Shown: in pieces, positions 2,609 to 49,237 of the stretch
How positions within the stretch are numbered: position 1 is the first letter of the stretch
Layout: the number at the start of each line of letters is the position of its first letter
From: Sorangium aterium
GTDB lineage: Bacteria > Myxococcota_A > Polyangia > Polyangiales > Polyangiaceae
Direction: 5' to 3'
DNA length: 64,000 nucleotides
NCBI RefSeq assembly: GCF_028368935.1
Contig: NZ_JAQNDK010000001.1
Span: forward strand, 992,001 to 1,056,000
Translations under genes and position numbers: made by a program
Notes under the pieces: generated by a model
What the model was told of the DNA's origin: nothing
Databases searched by the model: none
The model's input: the letters and a program-made list of their open reading frames with translations, nothing else

Positions 2609-2682
2609 ACGCTCGCGCCGCCGGATCCGCGGTATGCTGGCAGAGCTCGCCTCCGGTCCGGCGCCGGGCGGCGACGAGGGAT

Positions 2683-3513
2683 ATGACCAGAGCGGCCTGC
2701 GACGTGCGCGACCCGAGCGAGCTGAGCACCTCCGAGCTGCGGCAGCGGTGCCGGGGCTGCAAGCCGTGGGAGCTCGGGCTCGGCGCGGTCCAGCTGGCCG
2801 CCTCGGCGGCGGCCGGAGGCGCGGTGCTCGCGGCGGCCGGCGCCTGCATTCCGGGGCTGGTCCAGTGCATCAGCGTGGGCCCGGCGCTCGCGGCGGGGCT
2901 CGCGGTCTGGGAGTCGATCGGGGTGGCCAGGGGGTGGCTGCCGGGCGCGGCGTACCGCGATGAGCTCGCGTTCCGCGCGTGGCACGCGGGGCTCTCGCCG
3001 TGGGTCGGGCCGGCAGCGCAGCGTCGCTGGGCCAGGCGCGCGCTGGCGCGCCGGCCCGCGGCCCCCGACTGGCTGCTCGTCCTCGAGGGCATCGCGCCGG
3101 CCGGCGGAGGGCGCCGCTGGGTCAAGGTCGAGCTCTCGCTGTCCCCCTCCTCGGACGGCCCGTTCCGCTCGCAGGCCAGCGCGCACGCGCTGCTGCGCGC
3201 GGACGGCGACGGCGCAGGAGCGCCGCACGAGAGGCGCCTCACGCCCGAGGAGCTCGACGACCTGAGGCGGGCCGTCGCAGAGCTCCCGGAGGGGCTCTCG
3301 CTGGACACCCCCGCTTCGCCCCAGGACCCCGCGGTGTTCAGCGGCCGCTGCGAGCTGCTCATCGCCAGGAGAACGCCGTTCGCCGTGGTCCAGCTGACGA
3401 GCGCGTTTCCGTCGCTCGAGGCGGGCCCTCACGCGCCCTCGCTGTCGCTGCTGCACCGCCTGGTCCAGCTCGCCTGGCGCGACGAGTCAGGTCCGAGCCG
3501 GCGCGGCCACTGA
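2683..3513 (+). CDS. Hypothetical protein with N-terminal membrane segment
   Basis: A 276-aa protein that I do not recognise. ATG 2683 follows GCGACGAGGGAT, a usable ribosome site. After a Cys-containing N-terminus (CRGCKPWELGLG near residue 24) there is a long Ala/Gly-rich hydrophobic stretch, residues about 35-80, probably one or two membrane segments. The rest is a soluble region. Residues about 130-275 contain DWLLVLEGI and VKVELSLSP, a possible beta-rich domain. Its stop overlaps the 3' end of the convergent DUF2243 gene by 27 bases. Confidence 0.65.
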   Translation: MTRAACDVRDPSELSTSELRQRCRGCKPWELGLGAVQLAASAAAGGAVLAAAGACIPGLVQCISVGPALAAGLAVWESIGVARGWLPGAAYRDELAFRAWHAGLSPWVGPAAQRRWARRALARRPAAPDWLLVLEGIAPAGGGRRWVKVELSLSPSSDGPFRSQASAHALLRADGDGAGAPHERRLTPEELDDLRRAVAELPEGLSLDTPASPQDPAVFSGRCELLIARRTPFAVVQLTSAFPSLEAGPHAPSLSLLHRLVQLAWRDESGPSRRGH

Positions 3514-4005
3514 CGGGCGCGCCTCGCGCGTCAGGCGCCGGCCGCCCAGCACGAGCAGGACGCCGGACGTGAGGAAGGCCAGGTCCCAGCCGAGCTGCCC
3601 CGGACCTGGACGGACATGGTGGATCTGCAGGAGGTGATGGTCGATCACCCCCTCGACCAGGTTGAACAGCCCCCAGCCCATGGCGGCGGCGCCCGGGAGC
3701 ATCCGTCCGGGGAGCTCGGCTCCACCCGCGCGCAGCGCGCTCCAGAGCTTGATGACACCTGCCACGGTGAGGCTCAATGCGACAACGCCGAACAGGCCGT
3801 CGGCGAAGATGTTCCGCCTCACATCGTCGATGGTCGCGCCTGGATGGCAGCTGAAGCAGATCAGATGATGCCACTGCAGGATCTGATGGAACAGGATGCC
3901 GTCGATCAGGCCTCCTGCGCCCATACCGAAGATCACCCCCGCCGTCTTCACGGCGCGTGATGTCCTCGTGGCGGCGGTGATCTCGAACGGGCGGGCTGTG
4001 CTCAT
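3487..4005 (-). CDS. DUF2243 membrane protein
   Basis: A 172-aa protein starting at ATG 4005 behind a near-consensus AGGAGG. Four hydrophobic segments are visible. The first contains the family signature GLIDGILFHQILQWHH, and the third GLFNLVEGVIDHHLLQIHHVRPG. The paired histidine motifs suggest metal or haem binding in the membrane, but function is not established for DUF2243. It is convergent with, and overlaps by 27 bases, the preceding plus-strand gene. Confidence 0.85.
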   Translation of the reverse strand: MSTARPFEITAATRTSRAVKTAGVIFGMGAGGLIDGILFHQILQWHHLICFSCHPGATIDDVRRNIFADGLFGVVALSLTVAGVIKLWSALRAGGAELPGRMLPGAAAMGWGLFNLVEGVIDHHLLQIHHVRPGPGQLGWDLAFLTSGVLLVLGGRRLTREARPSVAAPART

Positions 4006-4242
4006 GAAATCCTCCTGAGCGCGCCCCCATGCGAGCGGCAAACCACAGCCGTCGGGCGGCGCAGGACGGATCGCTCGGGCCGGCGGAGCGACCGGTTCGC
4101 CACGCCGGAGCGCGGCGCTTTGGCCGGCCGCGAACCGACGGCGCCCCGACTCGATGGACTGGCCAGCTCGGACCTGGCACGGAGTTGGCACATGCCGAGG
4201 AGAGGAGCCCACGTATCCGCAGAAATCGCTGAAAGGTGCCAG

Positions 4243-5037
4243 ATGGACAATCGAATGAACCCGGAACACGCCGCCGGAACGGCCGAGCCGGAACACCAGG
4301 GTCCCAGGCCGGTCCCCTACACGTACCATGACGGCCGAGAGGATTACCTCCACGTCGGCCGCCAGGAGGGCGCGGAGCTGGATCAGCCCGAGGCGCTGGT
4401 CCCGGCTGCCGAAGGGGTGACTTCACCTGTCCAGGCGACGTCCCTGCCGCCCGAAGCCGCGTCGATGGCCGCCGCGCCGATCGCCTCGCCGCCCGAGGCG
4501 ACGGCGCTGCCGCCCGAGGCGACGGCGCTGCCGCCCGCGGCGATGCCCCGGTCTCCCTGGGCGACGCCTCGCGCAGCGGCGCAGCGCCCTCAGCAGGCGA
4601 GCCGGACGAGCGAGATCGTCACGCGTGGGCTGCGGACCGGCGCCGTGCTGACGGCAGCGACGATGTGCACGATGATGGCAGCGTCCACCCTCAAGCGCGG
4701 ATCGCCCTGGGCCGCCATGAACGCCATGGCAGCGGCGGTCGGCCTCGGGGGTCGCCGCCCGAAGCGCCAGTTCGACCCGGTCGCCACGCCCGCAGGGATC
4801 GCGGCGCTCGCCGGCGGCCTGCTCGTGTGGGGCATCGGCTACGAGAAGGCGCTCGACGCGGCGGGGCAGCGCGGCGGCGCGCTCACGGGCGCGCTGTCGG
4901 CGCTCGGCGGCTTCCTGCTCGACGACCTGGTCTTGCCCGGCCGGCTGATGAAGGGCTTCCGAGACACGATGGGCGTGGCCGGCACCGTCGGCAAATACGT
5001 CGCCCTCGGCGTGGCGAGCGCCGTCGCCCCGCGGTGA
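4243..5037 (+). CDS. Hypothetical protein with Pro-rich repeat and membrane-associated C-terminus
   Basis: A 264-aa protein starting at ATG 4243 after GAAAGGTGCC. The first 60 residues are polar (PYTYHDGREDYLHVGRQEG). Residues about 65-120 are a Pro/Ala-rich region with imperfect tandem repeats of PPEATAL, encoded by 21-bp direct repeats. The second half has hydrophobic Ala/Gly segments (TGAVLTAATMCTMMAAST and GIAALAGGLLVWGIGY) and a Lys/Arg patch GGRRPKRQ. No family was recognised. It may be a membrane-anchored structural protein. Confidence 0.6.
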   Translation: MDNRMNPEHAAGTAEPEHQGPRPVPYTYHDGREDYLHVGRQEGAELDQPEALVPAAEGVTSPVQATSLPPEAASMAAAPIASPPEATALPPEATALPPAAMPRSPWATPRAAAQRPQQASRTSEIVTRGLRTGAVLTAATMCTMMAASTLKRGSPWAAMNAMAAAVGLGGRRPKRQFDPVATPAGIAALAGGLLVWGIGYEKALDAAGQRGGALTGALSALGGFLLDDLVLPGRLMKGFRDTMGVAGTVGKYVALGVASAVAPR

Positions 5038-9368: not shown

Positions 9369-12300
9369 TCACGCCGAGGGCCCTCCCCACCTCGCCGCCA
9401 TCTCCAGCGTCCGCTGGTTCTCCGGTATCGTGAGGAACCGCTCCCTCCACACCGGATCGCTGATCTTCCCCGCCCTCTCCATCAACCGCTCCCTCGCCGC
9501 CGCGATCGCCGCCGCGCAGTCCGCCTCCATCCCGTTCGCCGCCAGCGCCTCCGCGTAGACGTTCCTCACCGCGGACTCCCCCTCCTCGATCGCCCCGATC
9601 GCGTTCAGCATCGAGAACGCCTCCCCCGCCGCCGACAGCGCCTCGTCGAACCTCCCCAGCCCGAGCAGCGCCCTCGCCCTCGCCGCGACCGCCGCCGCGC
9701 GCAGCGGCGGCGCGCTCTGCAGGATCTCCGCCGCCGCCCTCGCCTCCTGCTCCGCCCCCTCGAAGTCCCGCGCCAGCAGCGCGATCCGCGCGAGGTACGT
9801 CCGCGCGCTCCCCTCCGTGCGCGGATCCCCGAGCCGCTGCGACAGCGCGATCGCCTCGCGCTCGGTCCGCTCCGCCTCCTCGATCCGCCCCCGGTAGCCG
9901 AGGACGTGCCCCAGGTTGCTGAGCGTCGCCACCGCGAGATCGTGCAGCCCCATCCGCTCCGCGCCCGAGAGCGCGCTGCGCAGCACCTCCTCCGCGCCCG
10001 CGAAATCCCCGAGCTCCGCGTGCATGTACCCGACGTTCATGCGGAACGCGCAGGCGTTGCCGCGGTCGCCCGCGCGCTCGAACGCCGCGAGCGCCGCGGA
10101 CAGCCCCGCGAGGCACGCGCTGGGATCGCCGTTCCCGAGCGCCCGGGCCGACCGCGCCGCGTGCAGCCGCGCCACCACCTCGACCTCCCGCTCCGCGAGG
10201 TCCGTCCCGTCGCCCTCGATCGCCTCGATCAGCGCGTCCGCGAACGCGTAGCGCCCCCCGAACACGAGCAGCAGCGCGCCCTCGCCGAGGCACATGTGCT
10301 TCGCCACGAGCGCGCCCTCCGCGTCCGCCGCGGCGGCCTGCGCCGCGCTCATCCAGCGCTCCACCCGCTCGAAGCCGCCCAGCTTGCCCGCGGCCATGGC
10401 GACCTGCTTGATCGCCGAGAACCACGCCGCGGAGCCGGCGGGCAGCCGGTCCACGGCCTCGGTCCCGCGCTGCTCCGCGAGCGCGAGCTCCCCGCGCCAG
10501 ACGTGCGCCTCGGCCTCCACGAGGCGCAGCGCGCCGAGCGCCTGCGCGTTCGGGCCGCACGCGACGCCGCGCTCGGCGCGCTCGATCGCGGCGGCGAGGT
10601 CCTGCGCCCGCAGCGCCTGCTCCGCCGCGCGGCAGTACGCGGCGGCGGCGCGCGAGAGCTCGCCGCCGCGCTCGAAGTGCTCGCCGAGCGCCATCGCGTC
10701 GACCGCGCCCGCGCCCGCGCGCGACAGCCACTCGCCGGCGAGCCGGTGCCCGAGCCGCCGATCGCCCTCCGTCAGCATCCCGTAGGCCGCCTCCCGCACG
10801 ATCGCGTGCTGGAAGCTGTACTCCACCTCGCCGGGCAAGCTGCCCTCGCCGCGCCGGGAGATCACCTCGCGCTGCTCCAGCTCGACCAGCTTCGGCGCGA
10901 CCTGCGCCCCGCCCACGAGCGCCGACACCCCGCCCTGCCAGAACGTCTGCCCGAAGACGCTCGCCGCCCGCAGCGCGCGCCGCGCCTCGATGTCGAGCGC
11001 CTCGATGCGCGCCTGCACCATCGCCACCACCGTCTCGGGCAGGTCGGCGCCCTTGCCGTCGGCCACCGCGCGGAGCTGCTCCTCCAGGTAGAACGCGTTG
11101 CCGTCGGCGCGGTCGACGATCATCGCGAGGAGCTCCGGCGCGACGTCCTCGCCGAGCACCTGGCGCACCAGCCGCTCGCTCGCGCGCCGCGGCAGCCCCG
11201 ACAGCTGCACCTCGTGGACGCCGCGCCCCGCCCAGAGCTTCGGGAAGAGCTCCCGCACCTCCGGCCGGCCCAGCGCGAGCACCATCAGCCGCTGATCGCC
11301 GAGGTTGCGGAGCGCCGAGTCGACGAGCAGCACGCTCGGGAGATCGCCCCAGTGCAGGTCCTCCAGCACGAGGAGCACGGGCCTCGCCGAGCACTCCGCC
11401 CTGAGGAGCTCCTCCCAGGCGACGCGGATCTGGTCGCTCATCAGCACGGGGCTGCGCCGCGCCGCCATCAGCTGCACGCTGTCGCCGTCGGGGAACGGCA
11501 CGCCGATGAGCTCCCCGAGGAACGCCGCGGTGCGCGCCGATTCGGCGTGGCCGTACCGCGCGACGCGCGCGCGGAGCTTGCGCTGCCGCGCCTCGATGGG
11601 CTCGCCCTCGAAGAGGCCGATCGCGCGCCGCAGCGCCGGGGCGAGCAGCGCGAAGGCCGAGCCGGCGCTCATCGGGTCGCCGCGCCCGATCCACACCTCC
11701 AGGTCCTCGCCGCGGTCGCGGAGCCGCCGGATCAGCTCGGAGCGCAGGCGGGATTTGCCTGCGCCCGCGGGCGCGGTCACGAGCACGGCGCTCGGCGTCG
11801 ACTCCTCGACGCAGTGCGAGAACGCCGCCTCCAGGAGCGCGAGCTCGCGGTCGCGCCCGACGCACGGCGTCGGCTTGCCGAGCAGGGGCGGCGTGGAGGC
11901 GAGCTCCTCGCGCTCGCCGTACAGGCGGAGGGCGCCCGCCTCGCGGGTCACGTCGAACCGCGCGCCGAGCAGCCCCGCGGTCACCTCGTCCATGCGGACG
12001 GCGTCCGCGCCGGCCGGCGCGTGCGCGGGCGGCAGCAGGTGGACCGCGCGGTCGATGAGCTCGCCGACCGGCAGCCGCGCGGACATCTCGGCGCGGCCCG
12101 TGACGAGCGCGACCGGCACGCTGCCGAGCAGCGCGTTCAGCGCGAGCGCGCAGCGGGCGGACTGCGCCGCGAGGTCGGTCGGGGCGCCGCCGGCGGTGAG
12201 CACGATGAGCGGCGAGCGGGACTCCAGGATCTCGAGCTCGCCCTGGTAGCGCTCGGCGACGGCGATGAGCGCCTTGCTGCGCTCCAGGTCCTCCTCCTGG

Positions 12301-37573: not shown

Positions 37574-37930
37574 CTATCCCAGGGCGTCTTCGATCCGGAC
37601 CCGCACGAGGCGCACGCCGGAGGGGATCCGGAGCAGCGTATCCCACCACTCCGAGCCGGCGAAGCGATAACGGATCTGCACCCCGAGCGCGGTCCCGTCG
37701 ACGAGCGCGCGGCGGGCGAGGGCGAGCTCGCCGCCCGCGCTGCCGGCCCGCTGGAGATCCCCTGCGCGGGCAGTCGCACCGGCCTTGAGCGACACCGAGA
37801 CGAGCTCCGCGGCCTCGGCGAGGTCGAAGAAGAGCTGTTCGAGGGTCGCCTCGTCGAGCACCGCTTCCTGCAATGGCGGCATCCGGATCTCAGGCGCGCT
37901 CTCCGTCTCATCCACGGTGTGGAGCTTCAT
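37574..37930 (-). CDS. Small protein of the nitrate-reduction operon
   Basis: A 118-aa protein from ATG 37930, overlapping the duplicated-NapB stop by ATGA. It has no signal peptide, haem motif or membrane helix. The middle is acidic (LDEATLEQLFFDLAEAAELVSV) and the end is ALGVQIRYRFAGSEWWDTLLRIPSG followed by VRLVRVRIEDALG. I do not recognise the family. Position at the end of the napD-napA-cytochrome operon suggests a cytoplasmic accessory or regulatory role. Confidence 0.7.
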   Translation of the reverse strand: MKLHTVDETESAPEIRMPPLQEAVLDEATLEQLFFDLAEAAELVSVSLKAGATARAGDLQRAGSAGGELALARRALVDGTALGVQIRYRFAGSEWWDTLLRIPSGVRLVRVRIEDALG

Positions 37931-38700
37931 GGCCTGTCCGCTCCCATGCTCGGCGGTGGCCACGCGGAGAGGGGCCTGGGCGCGCGCTGATCCAGCTCGG
38001 CCGAAGGCGCGTGGCACTGGGTGCAGCTCTGCCGGTAAGGATGGGTCGAGCGCATCCCGAGGGCGCCATGGACACCATGGCAGCTCGCGCACTCCGAGCG
38101 CATCAGCGTCGGGTGCGGGATCGTCGGCGGCGCGCCCTCGTAGGCGCGGGCGCCTCGCCGCGGCGACGCCATGCCCGCAAAGGTGTTGTCGGGCGGAGGC
38201 GGCGTCTCCGCGAGCGGCCTCGGGTCGGCGCCGACGACATGGCACTGCGTGCAGCTCTCGTAGCGACGGTGGCTCATCCTTGGCGCGGTGAGGTTCGCGA
38301 CGCGCAGCCCGCGCTCGTGGCACGAAAGGCAGTCCGGGGCGCCGAGCTGCTCGATGCGATGCGGTATCGTGGGCGGCGCGCCATCATAGGCGCGGCGGGA
38401 AGCGCGCCGCTCGAGCGCCGCCTCTCGATCGGCCTCCGACTGCTCGACAGGCGCGTAGAGATCGGCGTCCGCCGCCTCGAGCCGGGCGAATGCGCCCTCG
38501 TACATGCCGGCGTTCGGGCCGTGCGCGCGCTCGCGCATGTCGGCGTAGCTGCGCGCCTCGACGCTCGCCGAGGGCGGAGCGGGATCGCCGCGCAGCTCAG
38601 CGACCCCCCGCTCCGTGCCGCGGACCCCCGAGAAGTAGCCCGCCGCCGCGACAGCGACGATCGCGGCGAGGCCGACGTGCAGGCCGCGGGCGTCCTTCAT
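37927..38700 (-). CDS. napB: Tetrahaem NapB-like cytochrome with internal duplication
   Basis: A 257-aa protein from ATG 38700, overlapping the napA stop by ATGA. Residues about 8-24 form a signal anchor. Four haem motifs are present: CLSCH 124-128, CTQCH 150-154, CASCH 204-208 and CTQCH 226-230. The two halves repeat the same plan, RAYDGAPPTIPH ... CxxCH ... SHRRYESCTQCH and RAYEGAPPTIPH ... CxxCH ... HPYRQSCTQCH. PPTIPH plus CxxCH...CTQCH is the layout of dihaem NapB, so this looks like two fused NapB units. It should carry electrons to NapA in the periplasm. Confidence 0.88.
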   Translation of the reverse strand: MKDARGLHVGLAAIVAVAAAGYFSGVRGTERGVAELRGDPAPPSASVEARSYADMRERAHGPNAGMYEGAFARLEAADADLYAPVEQSEADREAALERRASRRAYDGAPPTIPHRIEQLGAPDCLSCHERGLRVANLTAPRMSHRRYESCTQCHVVGADPRPLAETPPPPDNTFAGMASPRRGARAYEGAPPTIPHPTLMRSECASCHGVHGALGMRSTHPYRQSCTQCHAPSAELDQRAPRPLSAWPPPSMGADRP

Positions 38701-41120
38701 CGCGCCTCTCCCCGCTTGCCCTGCGGTTTGCGGCGGATCTTGACCGCGCACTTCTTGTAGTCCGGCTGCTTCGAGAGCGGATCGTACGCCTCGAGCGTCG
38801 CGCGGTTCACCATCACGGTCTCATCGAAGAACGGCACGAACACCGTGCCGGCCGGCGGCGCGCCCCGGCCCTCGATCCAGACAGGCAGCTCGAGCGCGCC
38901 GCGCCGGCTCTCCAGGATCACGACCTCGCCGTCGCCGACACCGAGCCTCCGCGCGTCCTCGCGGTTCATCTCCAGGTACGACTGCGGCATCGCCCGCTGT
39001 AGCTGGGGTATCCTCATGGTGAGCGACCCCGTGTGCCAGTGCTCGAGGACGCGGCCCGTGCACAGCCAGAAGGGATACTCCGCGTCGGGCGACTCGGGCG
39101 GCGGCTCGTAGGGGTGAAACCAGAGGAGCGCCCGGTCGTCCTTCGTCACCGAGTGATAAAACTGGATCTCGTCCTTCGTGGCATAAGGGTCGTCGAACCG
39201 CGCGAAGCGGAACCGCGTCTCCCGCCACGAGCCGTCGGGCTGCTCGACGACGGGCCAGCGCAGGCCGCGCGCCTTGACGTACTCGCGGTACGGCGCCAGG
39301 TCCTTGTGCTTGAACCGGCTGAACTCGCGGTACTCCTCGAAGAGCTGCTCGTCGACGTTGACGTCGTGGTAATGCCTGTAGTCCCAGACCGGCACTCCCT
39401 TGCCGTCCTTCCGGATGTCGAACAGGAAACGGCCGTCCTTGTCCTTCATCCCGGCGAAGCCCATGTCGTGGAGCTTGCGCGCCACGGCGATGATCTGCCA
39501 TGCATCGTCCCGCGCCTCGCCGGGCGGCTCGACCATCTTGAACCACTGCTGCGTGCGGCGCTCGGAGTTGCCGAACATCCCGTTCTTCTCGACCCACATG
39601 GCCGAGGGCAGGACGAGATCCGCGGCGCGCACCGTGGCCGTCGGGTAGACGTCGGACACGATGAGGAATTTGCCCGGGATCTTGCGGCTCGCGTCGAAGA
39701 GCTCGTTGGTGTTCGGCAACGACTGGCCTGGATTGGTCACCATCACCCAGATGGTGTCGATGTCGCCGCCCTGCTCCTTCGGGGTCGAGAAGCGCTTCCA
39801 GAGGTCGACCGTGTGGTAGCCGGGCTTCGGGTTGATCCGCCCCGCGGGCAGGTTCCAGAGGTGCTCGGCCTCCTTCCGGTGCTCGGCGTTCGTGACGACG
39901 AGGCCGCCGGGGAGCCCGTGGGCGAGCGTGCCGACCTCGCGCACCGTGCCGCAGGCCGACGGCTGGCCCGTCAGGCTGGTCGGGGCGTCGCCGGGCTTGC
40001 CGAAGTGGCCGCTGAGCAGGTGCACGCCGTGCACCAGATCGTTGATCGCGGTGCCGCGGGTGTGCTGGTTCATCCCCATGCACCAGAGGCTCGTGATCCG
40101 CAGATCGCGGCGCCCGAAGAGATCCGCCAGCATCCGGATGTCCTTCGCGGCGACGCCCGAGATCGCCTCCACCCGCTCCGGCGTGTATTCGGCGAGCGCC
40201 GTCTTGTACTCCTCGAAGCTCATCGGCTGCCCCTCGAGGGTCGGGGGCTCGGTCCGCTTCCGGAAGTTGCAGAACCGGTCGACGAACGCCCGGTCGAACG
40301 TCCCGCGCTCGACGAGCAGGTGCGCGATGCCGTTCGCGATCGCAAGATCGGTGTTCGGCTTGAAGACCAGCGTGTGCTGGCAGAAGGCCGAGGTGCGCGT
40401 GCGCCGCGTCGTGAGATCGATGAGGAGCACCTGCTCGCCCTTCGATCGACGGTCGACGACGCGCGAGAAGAGCACGGGGTGCATCTCGGCCGGGTTGTTC
40501 CCCCACATGAGGAGGACATCGCACCTGTCGAGATCCTCGTAGCAGCCGGCCGGCTCGTCCACGCCGTAGGTGGAGAGGAAGCCAGTCACCGCCGACGCCA
40601 TGCAGAGGCGCGCGTTCGGGTCGATCTGGTTGTTCCCGAGCCCGGCCTTCACGAGCTTGTTCGCCGCGTACCCCTCGGGGATCGTCCACTGGCCGCTGCC
40701 GTAGAGCGCGAACCCCGCCGGGCTCTGCATCGCGCGCCGCGCGATGATCGCGATGGCCTCGTCCCAGCCGATGGGCTCGAGCTTGCCGTTCCTGCGGAGC
40801 AGCGGCTTCGTGAGTCGGTCTCTGCCGTAGAGGGCGAGGCCGACGTGATACCCCTTCACGCAGAGCAGGCCCTTGTTGACGTCCGCGCTCTGGTCGCCCG
40901 CGACCGCGACCACGCGGCCCCCTCTCACGCCCACCTGCACGTGGCAGCCGGTGCCGCAGAACCTGCACGGCGCCTTGTTCCAGACCACATCGGAGGTGAT
41001 CCCCGCCCCGGGCGCCGCCTGGGCGGCGGCGACGCCGTCCTTGCCCAGCGCGAGCCGACTGGCGGCCACGGTCGCCGCGCCCATCGCGGAGCACCTCAGA
41101 AACTCGCGGCGATCCATCAT
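38697..41120 (-). CDS. napA: Periplasmic nitrate reductase catalytic subunit NapA
   Basis: An 807-aa molybdopterin oxidoreductase from ATG 41120, close to NapA length. It starts with a Tat signal (DRREFLRCSAMGA). The [4Fe-4S] ligands are Cys52, Cys55, Cys59 and Cys87 (CRFCGTGC with 27 residues to the fourth Cys, as in NapA). The molybdenum ligand is Cys173 in NARLCMASAV. Later landmarks are WGNNPAEMHPVLFSR, MGMNQHTRGTAINDLVH, the TGQPSACGTVREVG loop and TGRVLEHWHTGSLTMR. It reduces nitrate to nitrite in the periplasm. The start overlaps the napD stop. Confidence 0.95.
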   Translation of the reverse strand: MMDRREFLRCSAMGAATVAASRLALGKDGVAAAQAAPGAGITSDVVWNKAPCRFCGTGCHVQVGVRGGRVVAVAGDQSADVNKGLLCVKGYHVGLALYGRDRLTKPLLRRNGKLEPIGWDEAIAIIARRAMQSPAGFALYGSGQWTIPEGYAANKLVKAGLGNNQIDPNARLCMASAVTGFLSTYGVDEPAGCYEDLDRCDVLLMWGNNPAEMHPVLFSRVVDRRSKGEQVLLIDLTTRRTRTSAFCQHTLVFKPNTDLAIANGIAHLLVERGTFDRAFVDRFCNFRKRTEPPTLEGQPMSFEEYKTALAEYTPERVEAISGVAAKDIRMLADLFGRRDLRITSLWCMGMNQHTRGTAINDLVHGVHLLSGHFGKPGDAPTSLTGQPSACGTVREVGTLAHGLPGGLVVTNAEHRKEAEHLWNLPAGRINPKPGYHTVDLWKRFSTPKEQGGDIDTIWVMVTNPGQSLPNTNELFDASRKIPGKFLIVSDVYPTATVRAADLVLPSAMWVEKNGMFGNSERRTQQWFKMVEPPGEARDDAWQIIAVARKLHDMGFAGMKDKDGRFLFDIRKDGKGVPVWDYRHYHDVNVDEQLFEEYREFSRFKHKDLAPYREYVKARGLRWPVVEQPDGSWRETRFRFARFDDPYATKDEIQFYHSVTKDDRALLWFHPYEPPPESPDAEYPFWLCTGRVLEHWHTGSLTMRIPQLQRAMPQSYLEMNREDARRLGVGDGEVVILESRRGALELPVWIEGRGAPPAGTVFVPFFDETVMVNRATLEAYDPLSKQPDYKKCAVKIRRKPQGKRGEAR

Positions 41121-41359
41121 GGCTCCAGATCCGAGAAGTCGACCGAGACCACGTCGACGAAGTCCACGCCGTCGGTGCAGAGCACCCGCTCCACGAGCTC
41201 TTCCCCGGCGACCAGGGTCGCTGTCTCGGCGATCGCGGGTAGCCTCGATCCACACGGAGGACCGAGCGAGAGCGCCGCCTCTGCGGCGAGCGAGCGACAC
41301 GCGCGCGCTCGCGCGCTGGGCTCATCGGAGAGCGTGATGACAAGAGCACTGATGGGCAT
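41117..41359 (-). CDS. napD: NapD-type Tat chaperone
   Basis: An 80-aa protein from ATG 41359 whose stop overlaps the napA start by ATGA. It begins MPISALVITLSDEPSARARA and ends with VDFVDVVSVDFSDL, the ferredoxin-like beta strands of NapD. NapD binds the Tat signal of NapA until cofactor insertion is complete. First gene of the minus-strand operon napD-napA-napB-like-small protein. Confidence 0.85.
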   Translation of the reverse strand: MPISALVITLSDEPSARARACRSLAAEAALSLGPPCGSRLPAIAETATLVAGEELVERVLCTDGVDFVDVVSVDFSDLEP

Positions 41360-41630
41360 CGGCACGCCTGGCTGGGGTTGATCGGGTGGATGCGGTCGAG
41401 CGGGTCGAGCGTCGCATCGCGACATCGCAACGTCGCAACGTCCGGGCCACACGATCTCCTCGCCGGAACGCCCGCGCATCGCAGCCTGTCCCTTCGCCTC
41501 ACCGGAGATCCGCGGCGCACGAGGAGCGCTGGGATGCGCAAACGGTGCGTCGGAACGCGCGCCCTGCACCGTGTCGAGCCGCGGGCCTCGGCGCCGCCCC
41601 GGACACGCGTGATGGCACGTGGCGTGCGAT

Positions 41631-42263
41631 GTGGTTCGAGCCGTGCACGCCTCTCTTCATCTTCCTGGAGCCGCCGTGATCCTGGGGCTCCTGTGCGTGG
41701 CGCACGCGGCAGGCTGCCAGGATCGCGACCAGCCGCCCGGGCTGCGCCCCGCGCTCGACGCGACGCCGATCGCCTCCGCCAGCGTCCACCGCCCTGACAA
41801 GCTCTCCGGTGTCTCGACGGACAGGCGGGACTCCCTAGGACGGCCGATCCGCGCGGCGTGCGTGACGTGCCATTCGCTCCGCAGGCCCGATGCGCTGCCG
41901 ACCTCGACGGCGGAGCTCGACGAGTTCCACGTGGGGCTGAGGTTCGAGCACGGCGGGCTGAGCTGCGCCTCGTGCCATGTGATCGGCGAGCAGGACACGC
42001 TGCGCAAGGCCGACGGCACGCTCGTCCCGATGCGCGACGCCATGCAGCTCTGCGCCCAGTGCCACGGCCCCCAGCTCCGCGACTACGCGAACGGGGCGCA
42101 CGGCGGGATGAACGGCAGTTACGCGGGCGGAGCGCGCGTGCGCAACCACTGCGTCGACTGCCACGATCCACACGTGCCGGCATTCCAGCCGTCGATGCCC
42201 GTCCTGCCCCCGCGCGACCGCTTCGTGGCGGCGCCCGGCACAGGAGAAGGAGCCCACCGATGA
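41631..42263 (+). CDS. Tetrahaem cytochrome c lipoprotein
   Basis: About 210 aa from GTG 41631. Possible starts are GTG 41619, GTG 41631 and GTG 41676, the last with GGAG five bases upstream but leaving no basic residue in the signal. The signal ends in the lipobox-like HAAGC. Four haem motifs follow: CVTCH, CASCH, CAQCH and CVDCH, the last in HCVDCHDPH. The pattern resembles small periplasmic multihaem cytochromes of NrfB or cytochrome c3 type. Its stop overlaps the ferredoxin start by ATGA. It likely receives electrons from the NrfD/ferredoxin module. Confidence 0.82.
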   Translation: MVRAVHASLHLPGAAVILGLLCVAHAAGCQDRDQPPGLRPALDATPIASASVHRPDKLSGVSTDRRDSLGRPIRAACVTCHSLRRPDALPTSTAELDEFHVGLRFEHGGLSCASCHVIGEQDTLRKADGTLVPMRDAMQLCAQCHGPQLRDYANGAHGGMNGSYAGGARVRNHCVDCHDPHVPAFQPSMPVLPPRDRFVAAPGTGEGAHR

Positions 42264-43162
42264 CCCAGACAACGAGGCGCGTCGCGCTCAAGGTGCTCGG
42301 AGCCACGCTCGGCGCCTCCGCGTTCGCCCACGCGATGGAGCCGCTCCGCGCGTGGAGCAAGGACCTCTCGCTCGATCAGTTCCTGCAGCGCCACTACAAG
42401 GAGCTCACGAGCGAAGAGCTCGCCGAGGGCATCCGCCGCCTCGAGCGGGAGACGCGCGAGGAGTACGGCCGCGAGGTCACGATCCGCGACATCCGCCCTC
42501 AGGAAGGGGTGCAGTTCGGCTACGCGCTCAGCCTCAGCGTGTGCATCGGCTGCCGCAAGTGCGCCGAGGCGTGCCACGTCGAGAACAACCACGATCGGCG
42601 CACGAACAACTCCTACATCCGCGTGCTCGAGATGGATCAGGGCAGCTTCGACATGGAGAAGGGCGACGCGACGTACGAGCACGCCGTGCCCGCGAAGGGC
42701 AAGTACTACATGCCGGTGCAGTGCCAGCAGTGCGACAACGCGCCTTGCGTGAAGGTCTGCCCCGTCCAGGCGACCTGGAAGGAGCCCGACGGCATCGTCG
42801 CCGTCGATTACAACTGGTGCATCGGCTGCCGCTACTGCGAGGCCGCCTGCCCCTACCACGCGCGGCGCTTCAACTGGACGAAGCCCGAGGTGCCCGCGGG
42901 CGAGATCAACCCGGATCAGGGCTACCTGTCGAACCGCATCCGGCCCCAGGGCGTCGTGGAGAAGTGCACCTTCTGCCTGCATCGGACGCGCGAGGGCCGG
43001 ATGCCGGCCTGCCTCGAGGCCTGCCCCACGGGCGCGCGCGTCTTCGGCAACCTCCTGGATCCGAAGAGCGAGATCCGCTGGGTGCTCGAGAACAAGCGGA
43101 TCTTCGTCCTCAAGGAGGAGCTCGGCACGCGGCCGCGCTTCTTCTACTTCTTCGACGTCTGA
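42260..43162 (+). CDS. Four-cluster ferredoxin subunit (NrfC/DmsB-type) with Tat signal
   Basis: A 300-aa protein from ATG 42260 behind AGGAGAAGG. The N-terminus QTTRRVALKVLGATLG is a twin-arginine signal, so the protein is exported folded. Four [4Fe-4S] cluster motifs are visible: CIGCRKCAEACHVEN, CQQCDNAPCVKVCPVQA, CIGCRYCEAACPYHA and CTFC...MPACLEACPTGA. This is the electron-transfer partner of NrfD/PsrC-type membrane subunits. Operon: tetrahaem cytochrome, this gene, NrfD. Confidence 0.92.
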   Translation: MTQTTRRVALKVLGATLGASAFAHAMEPLRAWSKDLSLDQFLQRHYKELTSEELAEGIRRLERETREEYGREVTIRDIRPQEGVQFGYALSLSVCIGCRKCAEACHVENNHDRRTNNSYIRVLEMDQGSFDMEKGDATYEHAVPAKGKYYMPVQCQQCDNAPCVKVCPVQATWKEPDGIVAVDYNWCIGCRYCEAACPYHARRFNWTKPEVPAGEINPDQGYLSNRIRPQGVVEKCTFCLHRTREGRMPACLEACPTGARVFGNLLDPKSEIRWVLENKRIFVLKEELGTRPRFFYFFDV

Positions 43163-43177
43163 GCGAGCGGAGCCACG

Positions 43178-44452
43178 ATGGGCAAGGACACGCACGCCAT
43201 CACCTACCCGCGCTTCCTCCTCCGGGTGATCGGCCAGAGCTTCGAGGGCTCGTGGCGCTTCTATCTCTGGATGACCGTGCTCACGGCGATCGCCCTCGTC
43301 GGGGCGAACGCCTGGGCCCACCAGCTCGTCGAGGGCATGCGGGTCACCGGCATGAGCGACCACGTCTCGTGGGGCCTTTACATCGCGAACTTCACCTTCG
43401 GCGTGGGGCTCGCGGCGGGCGCCGTGATGATGGTGATCCCGGCGTATCTCTACGACGACCACGAGATGCACGACGTCGTGATCCTCGGCGAGCTGCTCGC
43501 GATCGCCGCCATCGTCATGTGCCTCCTGTTCATCGTGGCCGACATGGGGCGCCCGGACAGGTTCTGGCACATCTTGCCCGGGCTCGGGCGGTTCAACTGG
43601 CCAATCTCGATGCTGACATGGGACGTCATCGTCCTGAACGGCTACCTGTTCATCAACCTGCACATCTCGGGCTACCTCATCTACACGAGGTACCTGGGCA
43701 GGAAGCCGGACAGGAAGTGGTATCTGCCGTTCGTGTTCCTGTCCATCGGGTGGGCGGTGTCGATCCACACGGTGACGGCGTTCCTCTACTCGGGCCTCGG
43801 CGGCCGCCCGTTCTGGAACTCGGCGCTGCTCGCCCCCCGCTTCATCGCCTCTGCCTTCATCACGGGTCCGGCCTTCGTGATCCTGCTGCTCCAGCTCGTC
43901 GCCCGGCTGACCCGGCTGCGCGTGGGCGACGGGCCGATCCGCACGCTCACCTCCGTGCTCCGCGTGACCGTCCTGCTCAACCTGTTCATGCTGGGCTCGG
44001 AGCTCTTCACGTCGCTCTACACGGGCGGCACGCACAGCACCGCCGTGACCTACCTGTTCTTCGGCCTGCACGGCAAGAGCGCGCTCGTGCCTTGGATTTG
44101 GTCGGCCGTCGCGCTGAACGTGGCCTCCGCGGCGCTCCTGCACCTCCCGGCGAGCCGCGGGAGCCGGGCCTTCCTCAACGCCGCCTGCGTCGCCGCCTTC
44201 GCCGGCGTCTGGATCGAGAAGGGCATGGGCCTCATCATCCCGGGCTTCGTGCCGAGCACCCTGCACGAGCTCGTCGAGTATGTGCCCTCGATGGCCGAGT
44301 GGAAGATCACGGCGGGCATCTGGGCCGTGGGGTTCATGGTGCTCACGATTGCCATCAAGGTCGCGCTGACGGTGCTCACCGGCGAGATGGCGGTCGAGCC
44401 GCGCTCCGGTGACACCCGCACAGGCGAGCACGCGCCGCCGCTTATGCACTAG
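43178..44452 (+). CDS. NrfD/PsrC-type quinol-oxidising membrane subunit
   Basis: A 424-aa protein with about ten transmembrane helices, starting 15 bases after the ferredoxin gene. SWRFYLWMTVLTAIALVGANAW, the helix with HVSWGLYIANFTFGVGLAAG, DMGRPDRFWHI and FNWPISMLTWD are landmarks of the NrfD family. It should oxidise quinol and pass electrons to the ferredoxin. No haem ligands are needed. Together with the cytochrome it can replace NapC as donor to NapA. Confidence 0.92.
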   Translation: MGKDTHAITYPRFLLRVIGQSFEGSWRFYLWMTVLTAIALVGANAWAHQLVEGMRVTGMSDHVSWGLYIANFTFGVGLAAGAVMMVIPAYLYDDHEMHDVVILGELLAIAAIVMCLLFIVADMGRPDRFWHILPGLGRFNWPISMLTWDVIVLNGYLFINLHISGYLIYTRYLGRKPDRKWYLPFVFLSIGWAVSIHTVTAFLYSGLGGRPFWNSALLAPRFIASAFITGPAFVILLLQLVARLTRLRVGDGPIRTLTSVLRVTVLLNLFMLGSELFTSLYTGGTHSTAVTYLFFGLHGKSALVPWIWSAVALNVASAALLHLPASRGSRAFLNAACVAAFAGVWIEKGMGLIIPGFVPSTLHELVEYVPSMAEWKITAGIWAVGFMVLTIAIKVALTVLTGEMAVEPRSGDTRTGEHAPPLMH

Positions 44453-44578: not shown

Positions 44579-46522
44579 TCACTCGGCGACGATCGCGACG
44601 GAGGCCGGGAGCGCCCCGATCTGCGCCGTGACCACGCCGTCCTCGTACGAGAAGGGCACCGCGCGATCTTCCTCGAAGTCGATCGACGCGGCGGTGACCT
44701 GCGTCGGGCTCGCGTCCACGGGGAAGCTCACCGTCACCCCCTCTTGCTCCACCACGCCTGCGCTGTACTCGTGGTTGATCACGTGGAGCACCGTGCGGCC
44801 GTCCGCGAGCCGCACGAGGTTATGGCTCATCTTCTTCTCGCCAGCGCACGCCTCGGGCTGCTCGGCGGACGCGCACTCCTCGAAGGAGAGGGTCACGGGC
44901 CCGGCGAGGTCCGTCGCTCCGTGGTACAGGCCCTCGTGGGACTTGTAGAAGTCGCGGAAGCGCGCGAAGAACTCCATCATCTCGAGCGCGGTCGCCGTGC
45001 TCTCGTCCGTTGTCGTGTGCAGCGGCAGGGCGAAGTACAGGCCGTTCGCGTAGGCCTCCGCGGCGTAGACGCGGAAATAGTCCTTCCGCTCCTCCAGCGG
45101 GAGCCCGTAGTAGCGGTTCATCATGTCATTGGGCCAGTCCAGGAACAACATCAGGGGCACTTCCTTGCCACCGACGAGGGCTTGAACGCGCTTCGAGCGC
45201 GCCTTGAGCCCCCGCAGAGCGGTCTGGAACGACACGGTCCCGTCGAGGTGCCCCTCCACGACAGGCACCCAGTTCATGCCGCGCGGGCCGTCGCCGTCGA
45301 TGTTCCAGTCGTACAGGCCCACGCTCTGCATGTCGACGAACGGCACGATGCCGTTCGACGAGATGAAGATCTCGCGGCCGTGCTGCTCGCGCGCGTAGCG
45401 GCGGAGCTCGAGCACCACCTCCTGCCAGTAGACGAGCGCCGGATAGATCTCGACGAACGTCCCGACCTGCGGGTCTGGGCGGTTCCCCACGGTCCGACCC
45501 CACTCCTCGACGAGCAGCTCGTTCCCGCTGTCGAAGGGCTTCGCCGTTGCGTTCACGCGCTGGAGGTAGCCGCGGAAATCGAAGCCTCTCCCGGCCGTCT
45601 CCGGCGCTCCTCCGCAGTCGAGCCCGTCCTCGGGGAGGAGATCGAACCCCTGCTGCCAGCCGTCCGGACGGCCGCCGTGCTTGCGACAGAGGTAGTTGCC
45701 GAAGTCCGCGACATGGTGGTCGTCGAACCCCTCGTTGCCATCGTACTCCGCGCCCCCGTAGCCGCCGTTGATCTCGTCGAAGTTCAGCCCGTCGACGCCG
45801 AGGTCGATCTGGAGCTTGCCAATCTCGACGAGCCGCGCCCTGTAGCTCGGGGACGCCATGCTCGACCGGTGGGCGCCTGGCACGATCTGGTCGTGGGCGA
45901 CGAGCTCGCCCGCGGCGTTGCGCGTGGTCTGCTCCCGAAATTGCTCGTCGCTGTCGACCTCGTCGTCGAAGAGGATGGATGCGGTGCTGCCCGCGACGAA
46001 GCGGACACCGCGCTCGCGGCAGCTCGCCAGATACTCGGCGTCATAGTCGTCGGCCTCGATCCCGGTATCGCGCCAGCGCTGCCACGCTCTCGGCACCATG
46101 TCCGGGGCGAGCTCGAGCACCTGGGGATCCGCCTCGTTCACCTCCACCTGGCTGAACGCGAACACCGTCAGCTCCGACGTGTCGAACGTGCCGAACACCT
46201 CGGGGTGGATATCGGGCATGACCGGCGTGATCTCGCCTCCACCCCCCTCTCCCTCCTCTCCCCCCGCCCCGGTCGCCGTGGTTGCGCCCTCGCCGCCCGC
46301 GCCCCCGCTGGACGCCGCCATGCCGCCGCTTCCCCCAGGTCCTCCAGGGCCAGGATCCGAGCTGCACGCGCTCTCGGTCAGGGCGCCGGCCATGACCATG
46401 CATGACAGCAGCCACGACCAGCCTGATCTCCCGGTCCGGGCCGCGCGACCCTGGTACCTATGCGCCGGAGCCTCTCGACGCCCGGCGCCGCCCGCGATCC
46501 CGTCGTTGCGATGAGTTGCCAT
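44579..46522 (-). CDS. Lipoprotein with probable glycoside-hydrolase-like TIM barrel
   Basis: A 647-aa protein from ATG 46522, although a start nearer the signal is possible. The signal core WSWLLSCMVMAGALTESAC ends in a lipobox, then a Gly/Ser/Glu-rich linker. The large domain contains LDQID-like barrel strands: IDLGVDGLNFDEINGGYGG, AREQHGREIFISSNGIVPF and LMLFLDWPNDMMNRYYG. A beta-sandwich seems to follow (RTVLHVINHEYS). Acidic residues at strand ends suggest a glycosidase, but I cannot assign a GH family. Probably surface attached and polysaccharide-acting; the esterase and xylanase genes fit that theme. Confidence 0.6.
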   Translation of the reverse strand: MATHRNDGIAGGAGRREAPAHRYQGRAARTGRSGWSWLLSCMVMAGALTESACSSDPGPGGPGGSGGMAASSGGAGGEGATTATGAGGEEGEGGGGEITPVMPDIHPEVFGTFDTSELTVFAFSQVEVNEADPQVLELAPDMVPRAWQRWRDTGIEADDYDAEYLASCRERGVRFVAGSTASILFDDEVDSDEQFREQTTRNAAGELVAHDQIVPGAHRSSMASPSYRARLVEIGKLQIDLGVDGLNFDEINGGYGGAEYDGNEGFDDHHVADFGNYLCRKHGGRPDGWQQGFDLLPEDGLDCGGAPETAGRGFDFRGYLQRVNATAKPFDSGNELLVEEWGRTVGNRPDPQVGTFVEIYPALVYWQEVVLELRRYAREQHGREIFISSNGIVPFVDMQSVGLYDWNIDGDGPRGMNWVPVVEGHLDGTVSFQTALRGLKARSKRVQALVGGKEVPLMLFLDWPNDMMNRYYGLPLEERKDYFRVYAAEAYANGLYFALPLHTTTDESTATALEMMEFFARFRDFYKSHEGLYHGATDLAGPVTLSFEECASAEQPEACAGEKKMSHNLVRLADGRTVLHVINHEYSAGVVEQEGVTVSFPVDASPTQVTAASIDFEEDRAVPFSYEDGVVTAQIGALPASVAIVAE

Positions 46523-46774
46523 GCGCACAGAAGGCGTTCGCGCCATCCGCCATGTCAAGGCGGCCTGCGCCGCAGCACGAAGCTGTCACAGTGGGAGCTT
46601 CTCAGACAACCACGTCAAATTCCAGCACCACCGCTCGCGCTTCATGGTTGAATTCCGCGTGCGCAGAACGTCGCTCCGCCGACTGGCGGCCTTCATCGCC
46701 ACCTGCGTCCTCGGCGCCGCGCTCGCCTCTTCCCACGGTCCTGCATTCACGATTTGCTCTTGACGGAGACGATC

Positions 46775-48451
46775 ATGCCTATTCGACCTTCATTGTCGCA
46801 CACCATTCTTCTTGGCCTGCTCGCTGCCGCCTGCAGCTCGAGCGAGCCGGCTCTGGAGGGCTCCGGCGGCTCGGGCGGCGCCGGCGGCTCGGGCGGCGCC
46901 GGCGGCTCGGGCGGCGCCGGTGGGTCCGGCGGCAGCGACGCGGCTGCGCCGCTCGTCGAGACGGAGGCGGGTCCGGTGGAGGGCGCGCGCGTCGGCGCGA
47001 CGCGCAGCTTCCTGGGCATCCCGTACGCCGCGCCGCCTGTCGGGGACCTGCGCTGGAGATCGCCCGCGCGGCACGAGCCGTGGACCGAGCCGCGGGCTGC
47101 CGTCGAGGTCGGCGTCCCTTGCCCGCAGATGGACCTGCTCACCCCGGGCTTCAATGAGAGCTCGGGAGAGGACTGCCTCACCCTGAACGTCTGGACGCCC
47201 GAGCGCCCGGCGTCCTCTCCCCTGCCCGTCCTCGTCTGGATTCACGGCGGCGGCTTCGAGCTCGGCAGCGGCGGGGAGGCCGATTACGACGGCCGGGCGC
47301 TCTCCGAGGCGACCGGGTCGGTGGTGGTCACCTTCAACTACCGCCTTGGCCCGCTCGGGTTCCTCGCCCTCCCGGAGCTCAAGTCGGAGGATCCCGATCA
47401 CCCCTCGACGGGCGCGTACGGCCTCGAGGACCAGCGCGCCGCGCTCGAATGGGTCAAGGCCAACATCGCCGCGTTCGGCGGGGATCCGGGCAAGGTCACG
47501 CTGTTCGGCGAGTCCGCGGGCGGCATCAGCGTCTGCATGCACCTGGTCTCGCCCAAGAGCAAAGGCCTGTTCCAGCGCGCCATCATCGAGAGCGGACCGT
47601 GCGACTCCGCCGCGGACGAGGCGGCGGCCAGCGCGCAAGGGCAAGAGCTCGTCGAGGCGCTGGGCTGCACCGACGCGCCGTCGGTCCTCGAGTGCCTGCG
47701 CGGCAAGTCGGCCGAGGAGGTCATGAGCGCGCTGCCGCGGGGCGCGGCCTTCCTCGAGGGCGCCGGCCCGACGTGGTTCCCGGTCGTCGACGGGTGGAAC
47801 CTCCCCGACAGGCCGGGCAAGCTCCTCGAGGCCGGGAGCTTCGAGAAGGTGCCGACGATCCTCGGCAGCAACGCGGACGAGGGCACGCTCTTCGTCGCGC
47901 TCTGGGGCGAGTCCGCGGCGGTCGCCGACGACGCCGCGTTCGAGACGTTCGCCGAGACGCTCGCCCCGGGCCACGGCGAGGAGGTGGTGGCGCTCTACCC
48001 GAGCCAGACCTACGGCTCGGCGCAGGCGGCGGCGATCGCGGCGCTCGGCGATTCGATGTTCGTGTGCCCGACGCGGCGGGCGGCGCGCGCGCTCGCGGGC
48101 GGCGGCGCGGCGACGTATCTCTATCATTTCACCTATGCGCCCGAGAGCTCGCTGCTCGGCGATCTCGGCGCCTTCCATTCTTCCGAGATCAAGTTCGTGT
48201 TTGGCAACCCGACATTGGTGTTGCCGGAGCCGCTGACCGCGGGCGAGCTCGGGATGTCGCAGAAGATCATGGGGTACTGGTCGCGCCTCGCGGCGAGCGG
48301 GGACCCCAACGGCGAGGGCGCCGTCACGTGGCCGAGGTATGAAGCGGAGGGGGACGAGAGCCTCGCCCTCGATCTCGAGATCGCTCCGCAGGCCGGCCTG
48401 AAGAGAGAGCTCTGCGACGCGTGGGACACCTTCGCCACGGCGGCTCCCTGA
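46775..48451 (+). CDS. Type-B carboxylesterase lipoprotein
   Basis: A 558-aa protein from ATG 46775 after GGAGACGATC. The lipobox LAAAC anchors Cys20. A linker of repeated GGSGGA follows, encoded by three near-perfect 18-bp repeats at about 46866-46925. The COesterase domain has FLGIPYAAPPVGDLRW, GEDCLTLNVW, the oxyanion loop WIHGGGFELG, nucleophile GESAGG, a Glu in SNADEGTLF and His in GAFHSSEIKFVFG, so the triad is complete. It hydrolyses carboxylic esters at the cell surface. Confidence 0.92.
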   Translation: MPIRPSLSHTILLGLLAAACSSSEPALEGSGGSGGAGGSGGAGGSGGAGGSGGSDAAAPLVETEAGPVEGARVGATRSFLGIPYAAPPVGDLRWRSPARHEPWTEPRAAVEVGVPCPQMDLLTPGFNESSGEDCLTLNVWTPERPASSPLPVLVWIHGGGFELGSGGEADYDGRALSEATGSVVVTFNYRLGPLGFLALPELKSEDPDHPSTGAYGLEDQRAALEWVKANIAAFGGDPGKVTLFGESAGGISVCMHLVSPKSKGLFQRAIIESGPCDSAADEAAASAQGQELVEALGCTDAPSVLECLRGKSAEEVMSALPRGAAFLEGAGPTWFPVVDGWNLPDRPGKLLEAGSFEKVPTILGSNADEGTLFVALWGESAAVADDAAFETFAETLAPGHGEEVVALYPSQTYGSAQAAAIAALGDSMFVCPTRRAARALAGGGAATYLYHFTYAPESSLLGDLGAFHSSEIKFVFGNPTLVLPEPLTAGELGMSQKIMGYWSRLAASGDPNGEGAVTWPRYEAEGDESLALDLEIAPQAGLKRELCDAWDTFATAAP

Positions 48452-48604
48452 CGGCGCTCGCACGGAGGGCCGCGGCGCGTCGCGCCATGGCCGGGGCACG
48501 GCGTGCGGCCTGCGTGCCTTGCCTCCGGGCCCGCCGCGCGATGGATCCCCGAGCGCAGCCGCCGCGCTCTAAATAGCGATAGATATTATGCTATCCTGAC
48601 CACG

Positions 48605-49237
48605 GTGCTCTCCTCCTACGACCTCGCCGCCATCATGGCCCGCCTCGACGGGCGCGAGGCCGCGCTCGACCTGCTCACGCAGGAGCGCCAGGCCGCTGTC
48701 GCCGCGATCTTGCGGGCGCCTGCGGGACCTCTGGGCACGGCGCTCGACCCTGCGGGGGGCAGGGAGCCCGGGGAGGCCGAGCTCCTCCTGATCCGCCGGG
48801 CCGAGCACCCGGCCGATCCCTGGTCGGGGCACATGGCGCTCCCGGGCGGGCGGCGCGAACCGGCGGACGAGAGCCTGCTCGCCACGGCGATCCGCGAGAC
48901 GCGGGAAGAGGTGGGGATCGACCTCGCGGCGCACGGGACCCTGCTCGCGCGCCTGCCCGAGGTCCCGGCGGTCGCGCGCGGGCGGCGCGCCGGGATGATC
49001 GTCGCCCCGTTCGTCTTCGCGCTGCGCTCCACGCCGGAGCTCACCCTGAGCGACGAGGTGGCCGAGGCGCTCTGGACGCCGCTCGGGCCGCTCGCGCGCG
49101 GCGAGCGCACCTCGCGTTACGCGTACACGCACGAGGGAAACGTCCTCCAGCTCCCGTGCCTGCTCGTGGACGAGCGGGTCGTCTGGGGGCTGACGTACCT
49201 CATGCTGAAGCAGCTCTTCGAGGTGCTCCACCGGTAG
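48605..49237 (+). CDS. CoA-pyrophosphatase-like Nudix hydrolase
   Basis: A 210-aa protein from GTG 48605 (ATG 48635 is an in-frame alternative). The Nudix box GGRREPADESLLATAIRETR plus EEVGI is complete, preceded by WSGHMALPGG, the order found in NudL/PCD1-type CoA diphosphatases. It hydrolyses a nucleoside diphosphate-X bond in the cytoplasm, CoA or a related compound being the likely substrate. An AT-rich patch with TATTAT (48584-48589) directly upstream may be its -10 region. Confidence 0.85.
   Translation: MLSSYDLAAIMARLDGREAALDLLTQERQAAVAAILRAPAGPLGTALDPAGGREPGEAELLLIRRAEHPADPWSGHMALPGGRREPADESLLATAIRETREEVGIDLAAHGTLLARLPEVPAVARGRRAGMIVAPFVFALRSTPELTLSDEVAEALWTPLGPLARGERTSRYAYTHEGNVLQLPCLLVDERVVWGLTYLMLKQLFEVLHR

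Follow-up and report, generated by a model that had tools for sequence, protein, structure and literature searches.

In the present study, we analysed a stretch of 64,000 nucleotides (the window) within contig C1 of the 13.47-Mb genome of Sorangium aterium, with emphasis on a periplasmic nitrate reductase (Nap) locus at positions 37,574 to 44,452. The closest kin of this genome in our survey are Polyangiaceae metagenome-assembled genomes (MAGs). The initial annotation had placed seven genes in two divergent operons here, and all of them were confirmed by their coordinates:

41117..41359, minus strand: napD-like gene, likely encoding a NapA chaperone (80 amino acids), judged by its position and ATGA overlap with napA
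38697..41120, minus strand: napA (807 amino acids), with a twin-arginine (Tat) leader, a [4Fe-4S] motif and the molybdenum cysteine (Mo-Cys) C173
37927..38700, minus strand: tandem NapB, tetrahaem (257 amino acids; PF03892)
37574..37930, minus strand: X117, a conserved accessory protein (117 amino acids) with no family match
41360..41642, no strand: divergent intergenic region, presumed from the layout to hold the promoters of both operons
41643..42263, plus strand: tetrahaem c-type cytochrome with four CXXCH motifs, a possible lipoprotein and module subunit
42260..43162, plus strand: DsrO-like ferredoxin with a Tat leader and four cysteine motifs read from the sequence
43178..44452, plus strand: DsrP-type (NrfD-family) quinone-binding membrane subunit (NF045798)

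The genes of each operon overlap or nearly touch, as had been noted before. ATGA overlaps were observed at each minus-strand junction, from the napD-like gene through napA and the NapB-like gene to X117, and between the cytochrome and ferredoxin genes on the plus strand, where a gap of 15 bases separates the ferredoxin gene from that of the NrfD-family subunit. The start of the tetrahaem cytochrome is uncertain (GTG at 41619 or, likelier, 41643). NapC or NapGH, the quinol dehydrogenases of Nap systems, are lacking here: none of NapC, NapG and NapH was found at the window locus, in agreement with the initial annotation.

Families and conserved residues of the encoded proteins

The membrane subunit had been annotated as an NrfD subunit, and its membership of the NrfD family stands, whereas its assignment to NrfD proper does not. 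The score was 437.6 bits against the DsrP model NF045798 (curated cut-off 350), compared with 22.8 bits against the NrfD model TIGR03148, far below the cut-off of 347.6. With such an NrfD score, and with NrfA encoded on contig C4 beside NrfH, the locus is not an Nrf (NrfABCD) system. The window DsrP is the sole DsrP over the cut-off in its genome. For the ferredoxin, the best model was DsrO (NF045797; 189.7 bits, just under the cut-off of 200). The tetrahaem cytochrome falls outside the NapC/NrfH family as defined by PF03264 (13.5 bits, E 0.06, cut-off 24.1). In 109 of 109 rows, the window included, this cytochrome carries four CXXCH motifs and four more invariant histidines (104, 111, 161 and 185, counted from 41619). 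The module cytochrome of locus L152 (G234:C48:106259-106675) reached 21.9 bits against PF03264, and 25.8 bits with its neighbours in frame; a distant kinship of the module cytochrome with the NapC family is possible. Judged by a loose lipobox pattern, present in 43 of 108 rows, lipoprotein status is not a general trait of this cytochrome.

Quinone-site residues were mapped by spacing onto the numbering of D. vulgaris DsrP1, for which Calisto and Pereira named Tyr52, Asp106, Ser124 and Asp129 (PMC8076601). The counterparts in the window DsrP, Y68, D122, S144 and D149, are invariant in all 101 nap-linked DsrP rows, and the spacings between Tyr and Asp (54) and between Ser and Asp (5) agree between the two proteins. 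Moreover, 17 of the 20 quinone and ion-path residues listed there for DsrP1 were matched (PMC8076601), with a residue-match score of 13 after penalties, and none of 1000 shuffles scored as high (best, 7). The R152 counterpart is kept in merely 12 of the 101 rows. This conservation supports quinone binding and not a nitrate role, because most of these residues are equally conserved in modules without NapA.

On the minus strand, NapA scored 880 and 852 bits against the NCBIfam NapA models, slightly less than the cut-offs of 904 and 930.6, and aligned with three periplasmic nitrate reductases of solved structure at E ~1e-210. In an alignment of the window with 114 loci, all 115 rows contained the Mo-Cys and the L of the ARLCMAS signature, and 114 contained each of the [4Fe-4S] cysteines. 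With its Tat leader, [4Fe-4S] cysteines and Mo-Cys, this protein is a member of the Nap family, and it is predicted to reduce nitrate. The "duplicated NapB" of the initial annotation was borne out by three stretches matching PF03892 (54.1 bits, cut-off 25.1) and by four CXXCH motifs; instead of the dihaem NapB, a tandem with four haem motifs is encoded here. Four more histidines (114, 144, 196 and 220) are invariant in 115 of 115 rows, again with the window included. In both cytochromes, the four extra invariant histidines would be fitting for bis-His haem ligation.

The napD call holds through position and relatives, and not through a family match of its own: the window protein had no match in the Pfam or NCBIfam scans, and it is named napD-like because of the NapD likeness of its relatives. 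Four of ten such relatives matched PF03927 (E 0.0016-0.0063, below the family cut-off), and 35 napD-like sequences aligned to Escherichia coli NapD by hhalign at E 2.4e-4 (probability 44). No Pfam or NCBIfam family was matched by X117, in which Q85, Y88, W95, D97, T98 and R110 are invariant in the alignment. An AlphaFold2 model (mean pLDDT 88) gave nothing at E<=0.001 against the PDB with Foldseek, and VIA-align reached a Z of 6.5 at best, with mixed sensor, LOV/PAS and EagT/DcrB-type entries; thus, family scans, the model and two fold comparisons yielded no trustworthy relative from which to assign a function. X117-like genes also adjoin DsrP without NapA in loci L187 and L198, and therefore X117 may be a partner of the module and not of NapA. 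Between NapB and X117, a NapF/NapG-like ferredoxin gene is present in 52 of 88 relatives (e.g. L002, L003 and L017), several of these ferredoxins carrying an SRR motif; no such gene was found at the window locus.

Beyond the module lies a gene for a 629-amino-acid protein (44579-46468) whose start resembles that of a lipoprotein and which matches no Pfam family, adjoined by a carboxylesterase gene (46772-48451) and a NUDIX gene (48503-49237).

Linkage of the module to NapA and the distribution of NapC

A contig scan with the window NapA gave at least 574 loci, of which the best 80 were used. These were labelled as Myxococcota, Planctomycetota, Verrucomicrobiota, Acidobacteriota, Candidatus Sumerlaeota and Hydrogenedentes, with some under other names. 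In addition, 377 genomes of the window's phylum (Myxococcota, judged by its kin) were searched, which gave 86 NapA matches from 84 genomes, counting the window's own. Adding the surroundings of the other 85 matches gave 165 loci with 141 distinct NapA proteins, of which 115 are window-type (65-80% identity to the window NapA, which is outside this number) and 26 are nearer to E. coli NapA (<=50%), with none between. Choosing loci by their similarity to NapA biases the sample towards close kin, and the edge of the family may lie beyond it. Gene content of the 115 loci was determined from blastp searches of their open frames (E<=1e-5).

The initial annotation had proposed that relatives would share the gene set without napC, and this was observed. 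DsrP is present at 105 of the 115 window-type loci; at the other 10 the contig ends 100-2035 bases upstream of napA, two of them showing the ferredoxin before the end. The Hydrogenedentes contig stops before the module position. Among the 115 loci, no window-type NapA without the module was found on a long-enough contig. The tandem NapB is constant across these loci (114) and X117 is common (88), with the tetrahaem cytochrome at 108, the ferredoxin at 107 and the NapD-like gene at 57; E. coli NapG-like genes (41), NapH (1) and NrfH (2) were also counted. The two units are divergent at 71 of the 105 loci with DsrP and colinear at 30, the module there directly preceding nap at a frame distance of -127 to 333 bases; at 4 the module is downstream on the same strand. 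In locus L160, NrfH and NrfA (2647-4580) lie less than 3 kb from a window-type nap cluster, forming a compact nitrate-to-ammonium island. The DsrP of locus L052, labelled as a Leptolyngbya sp. PLA1 MAG, is joined by very short branches to that of the Planctomycetota locus L064, and the label is probably wrong.

In the 377 genomes, DsrP lies within 10 kb of NapA at 63 of 86 loci, with both NapA types represented. Both NapA and DsrP are encoded in 75 genomes, NapA alone in 9, DsrP alone in 37 and neither in 256 (odds ratio 58, p 2.6e-40, not corrected for relatedness). The NapA counts are lower bounds, since two candidates were scored per genome; for example, the window-type NapA of G108 (L191) was missed, and the 37 genomes with DsrP alone are an upper bound. 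The idea that every DsrOP module is dedicated to Nap was rejected, as 67 of 130 DsrP matches lie more than 10 kb from any listed NapA.

Fragments (e.g. DsrP with fewer than ~330 aligned residues) were excluded from trees and distances, and all five proteins were available in 99 rows. In a quick tree without bootstrap, the 101 nap-linked DsrPs required 2 label changes, compared with a mean of 23.9 for shuffled labels; their tree neighbours are modules of the E. coli-like NapA loci L111 and L112. DsrP is also found at 10 of the 26 E. coli-like loci, and 5 of the 7 such proteins long enough for the tree fall in another clade, among modules with other neighbours. At L097, L098, L102, L103 and L110-L112, the cytochrome-ferredoxin-DsrP trio accompanies the E. 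coli-like NapA, at most of these loci together with NapG/NapH. Distances were correlated between NapA and DsrP (r 0.49) and between NapB and the tetrahaem cytochrome (r 0.68), with 0 of 999 permutations as high.

No match to E. coli NapC was found by blastp in the 115 window-type loci, and in the 20 kb around each of the 86 NapA loci on the same contig there was none to PF03264 at E<=1e-6, contig ends limiting this reach. Genome-wide, 31 of 60 genomes with window-type NapA had no PF03264 match at this threshold in a first pass with up to nine candidates scored, among them 18 of the 29 near-complete genomes (>=95%). These 31 genomes were searched again for PF03264 and NapH with all candidates scored, and E. 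coli was matched as a positive control in both searches. None reached E<=1e-6 for PF03264, nine had a match at E<=1e-3, and 25 of the 31, including 15 of the 29 near-complete genomes, had none over the family cut-off. The change from 18 to 15 leaves the odds of the reading given below unchanged. NapH exceeded its cut-off in 2 of these 31 genomes, as well as in G186, one of the 29 genomes outside this set, for which up to six candidates were scored. Thus, NapC-family and NapH genes are lacking in many genomes with window-type NapA.

The initial annotation had named a co-regulated napC homologue elsewhere in the genome as an observation that would count against it. In the S. aterium genome, the single PF03264 match among 21 candidates, all scored, is NrfH beside NrfA on contig C4. 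NapH over the cut-off was not found in this genome, where a 646-amino-acid frame on C4 scored 42 of the 213 bits required. On the same contig (G000:C4:426343-427248; L183 6077-8002), a 642-amino-acid protein with weak NapH and NapG likeness, under the cut-off for NapH, lies beside a 330-amino-acid protein with a Tat leader.

A proposed DsrOP-type route from quinol to NapA

Herein, we propose a distinct nap system in which the DsrOP-type module replaces NapC and NapGH as the route from quinol to NapA, and we estimate the probability of this reading at about 0.85. Its observed basis is the gene content, the protein families, the conserved cofactor and quinone residues, the fixed linkage, and the lack of NapC-family and NapH genes in many genomes. 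The route through an NrfD module put forward in the initial annotation is well supported as an inference, with the difference that the module resembles DsrOP and not NrfD; complex formation, the order and direction of electron flow, and the quinone type are likewise inferred. Quinol would be oxidised at the P-side pocket of the DsrP-type subunit, from which electrons would travel by way of the Fe-S clusters in the DsrO-like ferredoxin. The tetrahaem cytochrome and, after it, the tetrahaem tandem NapB would take them over and deliver them, across the [4Fe-4S] cluster in NapA, to the molybdenum site for the reduction of nitrate to nitrite. The eight haems of the two cytochromes would span what NapC and a dihaem NapB span elsewhere. 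The NapD-like protein, and perhaps X117, would act in maturation, and in S. aterium nitrite could be carried onward to ammonium by the NrfAH encoded elsewhere.

Several observations weigh against this proposal. Modules without NapA occur beside multihaem cytochromes in L189, L190, L193, L199 and L200; therefore, this kind of module is not nap-specific. Their quinone residues are conserved almost to the same degree. The distance correlations are weak evidence, because co-inheritance alone yields matching distances. Six of the 31 re-searched genomes contain PF03264 matches that are weak and yet over the cut-off (24-29 bits), one of which (G234) is the module's own cytochrome. Besides NrfH, the S. 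aterium genome contains a PF00033 cytochrome b match at C2:1872962 and two frames (on C5 and C1) with weak NrfD-family matches, perhaps ActC-like. Finally, the NrfD-type SirCD of Shewanella is reported to be able to replace CymA for several acceptors, though not for nitrate (PMC11434368).

Other routes have to be considered. NrfH or another NapC-family cytochrome encoded elsewhere might feed NapA while the DsrOP module serves something else; a PF03264 match at E<=1e-6 is present in 29 of the 60 genomes that encode window-type NapA, the single match in S. aterium is NrfH beside NrfA, and nrfH seems to stand in for napC in Campylobacter jejuni (PMC3475470). However, the near-complete genomes devoid of such matches speak against this route, a NapC-NrfH substitution has been called unlikely (PMC12285233), and the fixed DsrOP linkage would be left unexplained, so that we regard it as very improbable. 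Slightly less remote, and still improbable, is a supply of the tandem NapB by a bc1 complex or alternative complex III through soluble cytochromes. The principle is established for C. jejuni, where Nap is fed by Qcr and is electrogenic (PMC6195509), and the PF00033 and weak NrfD-family matches provide candidates in S. aterium, but in this genome, to which the search for bc1 and alternative complex III was confined, none of these is near nap, whereas the DsrOP module is, as it is in every one of the relatives' 115 loci with a contig reaching far enough.

The cytochrome-ferredoxin-NrfD module might also be a nitrite reductase or another terminal enzyme downstream of Nap. Such a role was hypothesised for a related six-gene cluster, and a similar cluster lies downstream of Nap in the Planctomycetota MAGs OFTM8 and OFTM33 (PMC10732223). 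The four CXXCH motifs and four invariant histidines of the cytochrome are, however, compatible with bis-His ligation of all four haems, which would leave no site open, and NrfA is encoded separately both in S. aterium and in L160; this appears to be the least probable of the routes considered.

If the DsrOP-type module does feed NapA, its DsrP-type subunit might in addition move protons through the conserved ion paths, allowing electrogenic periplasmic nitrate respiration without bc1, as a fifth nap architecture in at least five phyla. We consider this extension doubtful. The NrfD-family QrcD has been described as possibly carrying protons from the N side (PMC6303296). If the module moves protons, current estimates of how much energy these groups gain from periplasmic nitrate reduction would have to be revised.

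The proposed DsrOP-type route offers a concrete and testable explanation of the electron supply to Nap in organisms without NapC, a matter called less understood in NrfH-bearing organisms (PMC12285233). A possible function is thereby also indicated for one lineage of DsrOhPh-tetrahaem modules. Moreover, nap genes in Myxococcota, Planctomycetota and Verrucomicrobiota would have to be read differently, because a screen for napC would miss a DsrOP-fed Nap.

Comparison with known systems

Modules of this kind are found with other partners. In L189, L190, L193, L199 and L200, which belong to the window's family and class, the DsrP modules adjoin proteins with 6-28 CXXCH motifs, which suggests that they serve extracellular electron transfer. 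In L197, two cytochrome d1 domain proteins (2086-3423 and 10082-11908) flank the module, and its partner may be a NirS-type nitrite reductase. NrfBCD, Geobacter CbcSTU and Shewanella SirCD likewise combine a ferredoxin with an NrfD-family quinol dehydrogenase and supply further respiratory proteins with electrons, but they serve other acceptors, CbcSTU and SirCD being likened here by description (PMC12285233, PMC11434368). With DsrMKJOP (the DsrP1 branch), the window module shares DsrO/DsrP-type subunits, the same quinone residues and most of the ion-path residues, whereas its cytochrome has four haems instead of three (PMC8076601). DsrM, DsrK and a trihaem DsrJ were not found beside the module in the window, the search for DsrMK being confined to it.

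The closest counterpart of the module is the dsrOhPh-tetrahaem locus of cable bacteria and their relatives, reported in March 2026, the function of which was called unknown and for which transfer from the quinone pool to the periplasm was proposed (PMC13047784). As described there, that locus encodes homologues of DsrO and DsrP together with a cytochrome of four His-His coordinated haems, and the window module has the same composition. The locus of cable bacteria adds a TMH1 gene, and Nap is unmentioned in the relevant section; in contrast, the window module is fixed to NapA and the tandem NapB (PMC13047784).

On the Nap side, a review of May 2026 distinguished four nap operon types, napEDABC, napDAGHB, napCMADGH and napAGHBFLD (PMC13223375), and the layout of the window is none of these. 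The NapA catalytic subunit, a NapB-like donor and a NapD-like chaperone are shared with them, whereas the window differs in having no NapC, NapG or NapH, and in its tetrahaem tandem NapB, DsrOP-type module and X117 (PMC13223375).

In the open-licence literature, to which our search was limited in place of subscription papers, no statement that a DsrOP module feeds NapA was found, nor was one present in the relevant portions of PMC5317091, PMC12780646, PMC10949509 and PMC9386147. The nearest precedent is a 2023 paper in which the cluster was described for OFTM8 and OFTM33, again downstream of Nap; by isolate name, these MAGs correspond to loci L034 and L038 of our survey. That cluster is of the same kind and was read as possible respiratory electron transfer, with the term "NapC" absent from the text, and the related six-gene cluster was read as NrfAH-like (PMC10732223). 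Thus, the module itself and two instances of its pairing with Nap are already known, and what seems new within the literature searched is a whole NapA lineage fixed to this module in place of NapC.

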